DNA of 6,163 nt. It comes from Spirochaetales bacterium (lineage in GTDB: Bacteria; Spirochaetota; Spirochaetia; Sphaerochaetales; Sphaerochaetaceae). Both the position numbers and the translations under genes were made by a program. Shown here one piece after another: positions 1-944 of this stretch. The stretch covers positions 1-6,163 of the forward strand of contig JAGCUM010000234.1 in assembly GCA_017962865.1 (NCBI GenBank). The letters run 5' to 3'. The notes beneath the pieces were generated by a model. That model searched no databases. It saw only the letters and a list, made by a program, of their open reading frames with translations, and had not been told where the DNA came from. Every line of letters begins with the position of its first letter. Positions within the stretch are counted from its first letter, which is position 1.

Positions 1-259
1 CACGGGGAAGCTTTCCGGCCTTGCGCACGGGGATGAACGGCTTGTGAAGCAGATAGGAAAGCGGCATGCCGAGGATGAAGCCTCTGGACTCCGCACCTGC
101 TATGGCATCGAACTCGAGACCGTCGAGAAGCTTTACAAGCTCGTCTACTGCAAGCTTGAGTCCGTCTGCATCCTCCAGAACTCCGGTGATGTCGCGGAAC
201 ATGATTCCGGGCTGTGGGAAATCGGGGATTGTAATGATATAGTCTTCAACTTTCTTCAT
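1..259 (-). CDS. apt: Adenine phosphoribosyltransferase, N-terminal half (3' end outside window)
   Basis: Cytoplasmic purine-salvage enzyme that joins adenine to PRPP, giving AMP and pyrophosphate. Eighty-six codons are visible, roughly half of the usual 170-180. The protein opens MKKVEDYIITIPDFPQPGI. The family's N-terminal PDFPxPGIxFRDIT block is at residues 12-25, the AGAESRGF adenine/ribose-binding segment at about 54-61, and the PVRKxGKLPR loop at about 76-86. The PRPP-binding VVDDLLATGGT motif would fall beyond the left edge. I chose the ATG at 259 because AGGAG (270-266) stands 6 bases upstream. An in-frame ATG at 274 would precede that SD and is less likely. A promoter candidate lies at 299-328, so apt need not depend on the his operon, whose last gene ends 364 bases upstream. 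Identification is firm from motif order. Proximity to hisI probably reflects neighbourhood, since both pathways only share PRPP. Confidence 0.95.
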   Translation of the reverse strand, partial: MKKVEDYIITIPDFPQPGIMFRDITGVLEDADGLKLAVDELVKLLDGLEFDAIAGAESRGFILGMPLSYLLHKPFIPVRKAGKLPR

Positions 260-260
260 G

Positions 261-274
261 GCAGGCTCCTGCAT
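261..274 (-). promoter_or_regulatory. apt ribosome binding site embedded in a small palindrome
   Basis: On the minus strand the SD AGGAG (270-266) sits inside GCAGGAGCCTGC (272-261), an inverted repeat. As RNA it could form only a 4-bp stem with a GAGC tetraloop that would partly hide the SD. The SD fixes the apt start at 259. The palindrome is seen directly; any effect on translation is inference, and the stem is weak. Confidence 0.55.
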
Positions 275-370: not shown

Positions 371-389
371 GTGTGCAATTTTTTCACAC
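371..389. promoter_or_regulatory. Inverted repeat GTGTG-N9-CACAC, possible activator site
   Basis: GTGTG (371-375) and CACAC (385-389) are inverted around a T-rich centre. The right half, TTTTCACAC (381-389), recurs exactly at 431-439, 50 bases downstream. The site lies about 155-170 bases upstream of the predicted sigma-54 transcription start, within the usual range for enhancer-binding activators. The repeat is visible; the role is inferred and the activator unknown. Confidence 0.35.
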
Positions 390-514: not shown

Positions 515-531
515 TTGGCACGGTACTTGCT
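515..531 (+). promoter_or_regulatory. Sigma-54 (RpoN) promoter
   Basis: The bases TTGGCACGGTACTTGCT match the sigma-54 core consensus YTGGCACGrNNNTTGCW at every specified position. The invariant GG (517-518) and GC (529-530) are separated by exactly 10 bases, as the -24/-12 elements require. The predicted start is near 542. No protein gene follows on the plus strand; an intrinsic terminator follows instead, so the promoter appears to serve a small RNA. Sigma-54 promoters need an ATP-driven enhancer-binding activator. Candidate upstream sites and curved DNA lie at 371-507. The less conserved bases just upstream of the core (511-514) fit poorly. Confidence 0.87.
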
Positions 532-565
532 AATAAAAAGGCAGAGCAACAGTTTTTTTCAATAT

Positions 566-574
566 ACCTCCTTT
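566..574 (+). promoter_or_regulatory. Anti-Shine-Dalgarno-like seed in the small RNA
   Basis: The nine bases ACCTCCTTT equal the 16S rRNA 3' tail (…CACCUCCUUU). They lie between the U-run and the terminator stem with no obvious pairing partner in the RNA. They are the exact complement of a strong SD, AAAGGAGGT, such as the one before hisB (3652-3644). Read on the minus strand the site is itself an SD, but no credible gene follows it. Confidence 0.55.
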
Positions 575-584
575 TAGTGTGAAG

Positions 585-618
585 CTCCCGGATCCAGTAC
601 ATCCGGGAGTTTTCTTTT
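585..618 (+). terminator. Intrinsic terminator of the small RNA
   Basis: CTCCCGGAT (585-593) pairs perfectly with ATCCGGGAG (601-609) across a 7-base loop. TTTTCTTTT (610-618) follows at once. GAAG (581-584) can extend the stem against the first four T by A-U and G-U pairs. The U-tract is on the plus strand only. On the minus strand the same hairpin is followed by CTTCACAC, so it is not a canonical terminator for the his operon. Confidence 0.87.
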
Positions 619-623
619 ACCTG

Positions 624-944
624 TCAGAGTACTTCGTGGGTAAAACAGCTGAAAGTTCCGGTGTGGCACGCAGGTCCGTCCGGATTGACCTCGACAAGAA
701 GGGCATCGTCATCGCAGTCACTGGTAATCGAGACTATGTGCTGGAAGTTGCCGCTGGTTTCCCCCTTGAGCCAGAGCTTCTGCCTGGATCTGGAGAAGAA
801 GCAGGTTAGTTTTCTCTCTATCGAGATTTCAAGAGACTCCCTGTTCATGTAGGCAAGAGTCAGCACCTGCTTGGTTTTGTGATCGATTATGATGGCCGGA
901 ATCAGGCCGTTGGCGTCGAATTTCAAAGCATTGATATCGGTCAT
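624..944 (-). CDS. hisI: Phosphoribosyl-AMP cyclohydrolase (monofunctional HisI)
   Basis: Third step of histidine synthesis: opens the adenine ring of phosphoribosyl-AMP to give ProFAR. The 106-residue protein has the whole cyclohydrolase core: AYMN (31-34), [18 protein letters not shown] (49-66), then DCDDD (76-80) with the metal-binding aspartates and Cys77, and [11 protein letters not shown] (91-101) with zinc ligands Cys93 and Cys100. It stops there, so the phosphoribosyl-ATP pyrophosphatase (HisE) domain fused to HisI in many bacteria is absent and must be encoded elsewhere. The start at 944 has AGGAGA (959-954) 9 bases upstream, and this SD overlaps the hisF stop codon TAG (960-958). 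The gap to hisF is 13 bases, the widest in the operon. This appears to be the last his gene. The stop codon faces the end of the convergent small RNA. Confidence 0.97.

Follow-up and report, generated by a model that had tools for sequence, protein, structure and literature searches.

A candidate sigma-54-controlled small RNA of a multi-copy spirochete family, with a proposed antisense role at the translation starts of exported-protein mRNAs

The window, a stretch of 6,163 nucleotides from a Spirochaetales bacterium (contig JAGCUM010000234.1), holds a compact unit between two minus-strand genes that we named by reading their translations: an apt-like gene, the start of whose coding sequence lies at 2..274, and a hisI-like gene at 624..944, which is the convergent neighbour and lies outside the unit. 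The unit opens on the plus strand with a putative sigma-54 -24/-12 promoter, TTGGCACGGTACTTGC (positions 515-530, with GG at 517-518 and GC at 529-530). The small RNA (sRNA) that it would produce, also on the plus strand, is predicted to start at about 542, 12 nt past the -12 GC, and to run for about 77 nt (542..618); both ends are predictions, the start taken from the spacing to the -12 GC and the end placed in a T-rich tail. On the same strand the RNA carries a U7-CA anti-start segment complementary to (A/U)UG-AAA-AAA (553..561), an anti-Shine-Dalgarno (anti-SD) segment, ACCUCCUUUU (566..575, with CCUCC at 567-571), and an intrinsic terminator (581..618) in which positions 583-591 pair with 603-611 ahead of the T-rich tail. 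Further upstream, at 371..389, lies an enhancer-like palindrome, GTGTG-N9-CACAC, a putative sigma-54 activator binding site.

A search of the whole window for the motif TTGGCAC-N5-TTGC returned one zero-mismatch match, that at 515-530. Twelve further matches fell within three mismatches, every one of them at exactly three, and the total of 13 compares with a shuffle mean of 14.0. With 13 pairs, six of them G-C, the hairpin at 581-613 is the most paired among seven terminator-like sites in the window; shuffles average 5.6 sites, close to this number. For the predicted 77-nt RNA the folding z-score is -4.08, and none of 200 shuffles, which like those of the upstream DNA described below preserve base composition only, folded equally well. 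Direct reading of the plus strand found no ATG, GTG or TTG in 542-576; a stop codon comes directly after the GTG at 577, and from the GTG at 579 a 76-codon ORF extends into hisI in antisense orientation. Judged by its sequence, the locus appears to place a -24/-12 promoter directly 5' of a non-coding unit with its own terminator.

The unit lies between the same two genes, apt and hisI, in three relatives (L001, L002 and L003), and the promoter TTGGCACGGTACTTGC is identical in all three. When these were aligned with the window, 20 consecutive promoter columns were invariant across the four sequences and so were the 39 alignment columns GAGCAACAGTTTTTTTCAATATACCTCCTTTTAGTGTGA, whereas the terminator differs. 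The terminator stem was compared across 12 sequences, namely the window and 11 homologous units whose neighbours were checked for part of the set only, four of these units differing between the U-run and the terminator. All nine pairs of the stem are kept throughout (108 of 108 cells paired), eight of the nine have been altered on both sides, and slid controls pair at 32-52%. An invariant promoter/RNA block together with a covarying terminator is the pattern expected from selection on the transcript. By HisH (88% identity), the nearest named relative is Spirochaetales bacterium RGIG4911, a rumen metagenome assembly (L001); L002, L003 and a further locus, L043, are likewise labelled Spirochaetales. 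Among 80 HisH-related loci the promoter motif was found in L001-L003 only and was absent from L043 within its 12.6 kb, and the promoter string had no match in viral contigs.

The original prediction had read this locus as a sigma-54-dependent sRNA gene in which a promoter and a strong terminator enclose no ORF. The sole zero-mismatch promoter match in the window, the most-paired of the seven candidate hairpins with its stem covarying in 12 sequences, and the absence of start codons from 542-576 with an immediate stop after GTG 577 all agree with it, and its coordinates and size were correct. The retention of the promoter GG/GC and of the hairpin in close relatives, which it had named as a check, likewise supports a sigma-54 sRNA as far as sequence can. 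The extent given for the unit, 515..618, was borne out, but the palindrome at 371-389, which belongs to the unit, had been missed.

A covariance-model search of related genomes had been suggested alongside that prediction, and a model of the unit found homologs in 90 of the 159 nearest genomes (E <= 1e-4). What had been described as a single sRNA gene holds as a gene but turns out to be one copy of a multi-copy family: two matches per genome are common, a few genomes have three or four, and the matches are often close together or in tandem. In a phylum-wide sample of 392 genomes, 82 matched the unit model at E <= 0.01 and 32 at E < 1e-8; the next-best match after these 32 strong ones has E = 1.5e-4, and given this gap the weak matches are probably mostly chance. 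A second, wider model (R2) failed to enlarge the family; it matched 49 of the 392 genomes at E <= 0.002 and 31 at E <= 2e-6, and all 31 fall within the 32 strong ones of the first model, R1. Judging by the enrichment among the nearest relatives, the sRNA genomes presumably form one branch; we take three of them (G033, G034 and G058) to be Sphaerochaeta. Several genomes of the survey are nearly single contigs, and G033 comes to 2,227,296 bp. A match to rpoN was found in all four relatives first tested, in all 32 strong sRNA genomes and in 377 of the 392 genomes of the phylum sample, which does not include the window genome; rpoN is needed for the sigma-54 idea, yet at 377 of 392 its presence is not telling. 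We regard the gene and the family as very probably real.

We collected 104 distinct copies from 76 loci with a regular expression that required the sigma-54 motif, GAG[CT]A, a T-run and [CT]TCC, so that feature counts among them are partly by construction, and copies with other promoter variants (e.g., L091 and L269) stand outside the set. A terminator-like hairpin is present in 102 of the 104 copies, compared with 24 after one shuffle of that part, and the predicted RNA length over 102 copies is 66-112 nt (median 92), against about 77 nt in the window. A C-rich terminator loop occurs in 58 of the 104 by a loose pattern applied without a control. Twelve more divergent units, listed on condition of a T-run and CTCC, have TTTTCA in 11 cases, CCTCC in 11 and a C-rich stretch further on in 10, and GAGCAA is retained in two of the 12 only. 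In G058 the sRNA array is flanked by a rhomboid gene and an ftsJ/rlmE-type gene, and the same neighbours were seen by eye at the arrays of G034 and G014. Copies of another type, which we call B-type (L097, L103, L104 and L107), have UUUUUCAUGC/GUAUGAAAAA flanking CUCCUUU and a terminator loop that is rich in C and some 25 nt long. Among the copies folded, a convincing anti-SD hairpin formed in L097 and L103 alone, the two of B-type.

The palindrome of the window, GTGTGCAATTTTTTCACAC at 371-389, lies about 160 nt 5' of the predicted RNA start, and its TGTG-N9-CACA core is the sole match in the window (0.04 expected). In the 200 nt upstream of 65 copies, GTG-N11-CAC occurs 63 times and GTG-N9-CAC 55 times, the expected numbers being 1.6 and 1.8, although these upstream counts, like those of the strict form, are not independent because tandem copies share upstream DNA. 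An even-spaced palindrome had been considered as the upstream element and was rejected, being present in six of 65 upstream regions; the odd spacing was found afterwards. A putative upstream activator site is seen at 371-389 in the window and, in the strict form TGTG-N9-CACA, within 250 nt upstream of 57 of the 104 copies, compared with 0.25 in mononucleotide shuffles. The remaining 47 copies lack the strict element; the G058 array (L210) and G033's only copy are among them. Of 61 strict sites, 51 begin 55-150 nt before the -24 element, in the zone that sigma-54 activators commonly occupy. Judged from sequence, it is highly probable that the sRNA is under sigma-54 control, its transcription presumably depending on RpoN.

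Genome-wide, the strict site was found 23 times in G034 (20 for the reversed control), 9 times in G033 (6), 18 times in G001 (6) and 21 times in G008 (11), little above the control in the first two genomes and more clearly so in the last two. In four genomes inspected by eye, strict sites less than 300 nt from a sigma-54 motif lie at the sRNA copies and at one other gene, whose site (G001 C32:4186 and G008 C24:22019) differs in its inner bases; there, at G001 C32:4070-4202 and G008 C24:21903-22035, a sigma-54 motif has the palindrome TGTGTCA-N3-TGACACA about 100 nt upstream. A sigma-54 activator domain was found in all 15 sRNA genomes tested (in G006 weakly, 4e-6) and also in all 14 controls. 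As the best candidate for the activator we considered a receiver-AAA-Fis protein of about 455 aa, which is present in 14 of the 15 sRNA genomes and has, at several loci, a flanking histidine kinase and DinG-like helicase (named by reading). This candidate was rejected. It is matched at E <= 1e-90 in 156 of 159 genomes, many of them without the sRNA; some of these matches are probably just a paralog of about 40% identity, which also occurs in the sRNA genomes G009, G017 and G041; and G006 has neither the candidate nor the paralog. Given this spread, the paralogs and the absence from G006, a link to the sRNA is unsupported, with some evidence against it.

Other sigma-54-related loci were observed in the same material. 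An NtrC-type sigma-54 activator is encoded at L143-L154 and L161, several times together with a histidine kinase and a DinG-like helicase (by reading). At L204, L205, L207, L209 and L170, sigma-54 motifs lie 5' of PspA-type genes with a PspF-like activator adjoining (Pfam identified PspA in L205 and L207 and the activator domain in L205; the remaining loci were judged by eye), apparently a phage-shock-type system under sigma-54. At L208:1466-4443 (by eye also in L203 and L206) a sigma-54 motif comes after the gene of a PrpR-type sigma-54 activator, the next gene in L208 encoding a tripartite tricarboxylate receptor, and at L167:765, on the minus strand, a sigma-54 motif lies directly 5' of a 152-codon ORF whose product we take to resemble a Dps/ferritin-type protein. 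No strict TGTG-N9-CACA was found in the fetched psp and PrpR-type regions, which says little because the G058 sRNA array (L210) lacks the site too.

In reverse complement, the core of the RNA, U-run-CA-n-CCUCC, reads as a translation start: a Shine-Dalgarno sequence (SD), a start codon and AAA AAA. The U-run, the CA and the C-rich anti-SD come in this fixed order in 104 of 104 copies, where the selection had demanded a T-run and TCC, and CCTCCT is likewise found in every copy, where it had demanded [CT]TCC. The block CAGAGCAACAG-U7-CAUACCUCCUU of several copies gives, as its reverse complement, AAGGAGGT-ATG-AAA-AAA-ACT-GTT-GCT-CTG, in which a Shine-Dalgarno sequence precedes codons for Met-Lys-Lys-Thr-Val-Ala-Leu, resembling the start of a signal peptide; in the window copy the spacer is 3 nt longer and UUG replaces AUG. 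In the fold predicted for the window copy, the CCUCC stays unpaired. The anti-SD and the 16S 3' tail have ACCUCCUU in common, and the 16S end GGCTGGATCACCTCCTT was found in seven of seven genomes tested. These complementarities suggest a target logic, absent from the original prediction, in which the RNA would be antisense to translation starts.

Duplex energies between this block of the RNA and translation starts were computed with duplexfold, accessibility being ignored, and self-called ORFs were sorted by a heuristic into exported-like and other. The test covered 1.2 Mb and 1053 ORFs in G033 (160 exported-like, 893 other) and 723,548 bases and 673 ORFs in G001 (118 exported-like, 555 other). 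In G033 an MKK start is found in 23% of the exported-like ORFs and in 1.8% of the rest. The mean duplex energy was -17.46 kcal/mol for exported-like against -15.36 kcal/mol for other ORFs in G033 (difference -2.10), and -17.52 against -14.98 kcal/mol in G001 (difference -2.54). None of the RNAs shuffled in full, with base composition alone preserved, attained the real difference (0/40 in G033, 0/30 in G001), nor did any RNA shuffled only 5' of CCUCC (again 0/40 and 0/30). Shuffling only from CCUCC on attained it once in 40 and once in 30, and retained much of the difference, on average -1.37 in G033 and -1.39 in G001. When the U-run was replaced, the difference went down to -0.24 and -0.17 in the two genomes, and when the two parts were placed in reversed order it went down to -0.39 and -0.33. 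Shuffling CAGAGCAACAG alone did not remove the preference (6/30 at least as good), and GAGCAACAG, tried as a contributor to the exported-gene preference, was dropped as unsupported by shuffling.

Exported-like genes account for 13 of the top 20 predicted partners in both genomes (3.0 expected in G033, 3.5 in G001), and for 33 of the top 100 in G033 (15.2 expected) and 40 in G001 (17.5 expected). Target specificity is moderate, since in G033 a score below -12 is reached by 82% of the non-exported starts and by 85% of the exported ones. Ten proteins picked from the 19 exported-like ones in the top 40 of G033 were assigned by Pfam to solute- or periplasmic-binding proteins in six cases, to an outer-membrane barrel and an RCC1-repeat protein in one case each, and to no family in two. 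Of the ten picked from 14 exported-like proteins in the top 25 of G001, Pfam assigned one to the solute-binding proteins and five to diverse families, one of the five below the cut-off, and placed four in no family. The solute-binding-protein gene at L305:14685-15491 is an example of a high-ranking predicted partner. From the computed pairings, antisense action at translation starts appears likely, and we lean slightly towards exported proteins as the preferred target class.

An sRNA under sigma-54 could instead act through its anti-SD alone on any accessible SD, with other features choosing the targets; the U-run would then serve stability or an RNA-binding protein, and the exported preference would be a by-product of A-rich starts. 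Such sRNAs have been described; one, in the part of the article cited here (PMC10746234), is NfeR1, whose CCUCCUCCC motif occurs in three redundant copies. It fits this account that many non-exported starts score well too and that the U-run part by itself retains much of the preference. However, moving the anti-SD across the U-run, with the same composition, lost most of the preference in both genomes, and the order U-run, CA, CCUCC is retained in most of the divergent units, which makes this explanation rather unlikely. It is quite improbable that the RNA is a decoy that resembles the 16S 3' tail and sequesters a factor binding ribosomes or mRNAs, instead of pairing with particular mRNAs: ACCUCCUU is indeed common to the RNA and the 16S end, but such a decoy would leave unexplained both the fixed-order U-run-CA and the C-rich terminator loop (58 of 104 copies, loose pattern). 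Scarcely credible is a minus-strand product, a short ORF preceded by a strong SD (10 codons in the window, TTG AAA AAA ACT GTT GCT CTG ...) beside a coincidental plus-strand promoter and terminator, because, although the reverse complement resembles a translation start in 104 of 104 copies, the SD-to-start spacing is 0-1 nt in 71 of them, which is too short for initiation, the ORF lengths range from 5 to 67 codons within the approximately 260 nt examined, the 35 rows listed have no common peptide past the first codons, and the promoter, the upstream palindrome and the covarying terminator are all placed for the plus strand.

The reading that we prefer, and hold to be reasonably probable, is that of a sigma-54-dependent, trans-acting sRNA of a multi-copy family that blocks the starts of exported-protein mRNAs, probably without Hfq. 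A sigma-54 activator would bind the upstream GTGTG-N9-CACAC and open the -24/-12 promoter, and the resulting RNA would carry, from 5' to 3', the U-run plus CA and then CCUCC. This block would complement starts composed of SD, (A/U)UG, AAA and AAA, which are common among signal-peptide genes, so that the RNA would pair with the ribosome-binding site and the start codon together. Such pairing would block translation of exported-protein mRNAs, including those for ABC-transporter solute-binding proteins, and the RNA would probably act without Hfq. More tentative, and in our view somewhat doubtful, is the general form of the idea, with sigma-54-controlled RNAs serving as generic antisense of signal-peptide gene starts. 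If it is true, the joint match to SD, start codon and Lys-Lys codons would let one RNA repress exported proteins as a class, and in physiological terms a single signal could lower envelope protein synthesis in one step. Should the target model hold, the sRNA would recognise a functional class of mRNAs via common start features and not via gene-specific seeds, and a sigma-54 signal would be tied to the protein make-up of the cell envelope.

Searches of Rfam 15, permissive E-values included, gave no match overlapping the unit, either in the window or at 20 related loci that carry copies. An Hfq gene was found in none of the 15 sRNA genomes, some of which are incomplete assemblies and in which a divergent Hfq-like protein would escape the search; the same search gave matches in 5 of 14 control genomes. 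No description of the sRNA family was found among the literature matches listed (titles and abstract beginnings), and none was found joining Sphaerochaeta and sRNA. The apparently undescribed family occurs in many genomes of one part of the spirochetes.

The original prediction held that few bacterial sRNAs are known to rely directly on sigma-54; such dependence is less rare than this implies, several cases being known, among them GlmY/GlmZ, CrcZ and the Qrr sRNAs, the last of which are Hfq-dependent. The Qrr sRNAs of vibrios are present in one to several copies, their transcription relying on sigma-54 together with NtrC-type enhancer-binding proteins at sites further upstream, according to the part of the source cited (PMC10162802). 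The spirochete sRNA genes resemble them in being multi-copy and in having a putative sigma-54 type promoter and upstream sites, whereas Qrr, as described there, has quorum-sensing and symbiosis inputs and is a different RNA. CJnc230 of Campylobacter jejuni is an RpoN-dependent sRNA with a putative anti-SD stretch (CCUU); in the passages cited (PMC11187230) it is processed from the flgE mRNA, whereas the spirochete sRNA appears to be a free-standing sigma-54 unit of its own.

In their mode of action the closest parallels come from alphaproteobacteria. NfeR1 (alpha-r14) is a short, Hfq-independent sRNA with three hairpins bearing redundant CCUCCUCCC anti-SD motifs, and two of the targets tested for it are periplasmic transporter components (PMC10746234, in the part cited, whose reference list also holds the title 'cuckoo RNA'). 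The spirochete sRNA is likewise short, has a CCUCC-type anti-SD and is probably Hfq-independent; it differs from NfeR1, which on the same portion of that article belongs to alphaproteobacteria and has three hairpins and a promoter without a sigma-54 signature. In rhizobia, the sibling sRNAs AbcR1 and AbcR2 (alpha-r15) occur in tandem and bear two C-rich anti-SD motifs, CUCCUCCC and UUCCCCUC; they silence transport-protein mRNAs, including those of ABC periplasmic components, at the translation start; AbcR1 is associated with LsrB and a sigma-70 type promoter and AbcR2 with RpoH1, and both bind Hfq (PMC8844928, in the sections cited). The unit and its copies gave no Rfam 15 match to alpha-r15 or alpha-r14, families that Rfam may not both model; a conserved CCUCC anti-SD, predicted to be unpaired in the window copy, is a feature that the spirochete sRNA shares with them. 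Like AbcR1/AbcR2 as portrayed in those sections, the spirochete sRNAs come in tandem copies with a C-rich anti-SD; unlike them, they have a sigma-54 type promoter, an anti-start U-run 5' of the anti-SD and, against the Hfq binding of the AbcR pair, genomes in which an Hfq gene was found in 0 of 15. By analogy, the spirochete sRNA is best read as probably AbcR-like in action and Qrr-like in control.
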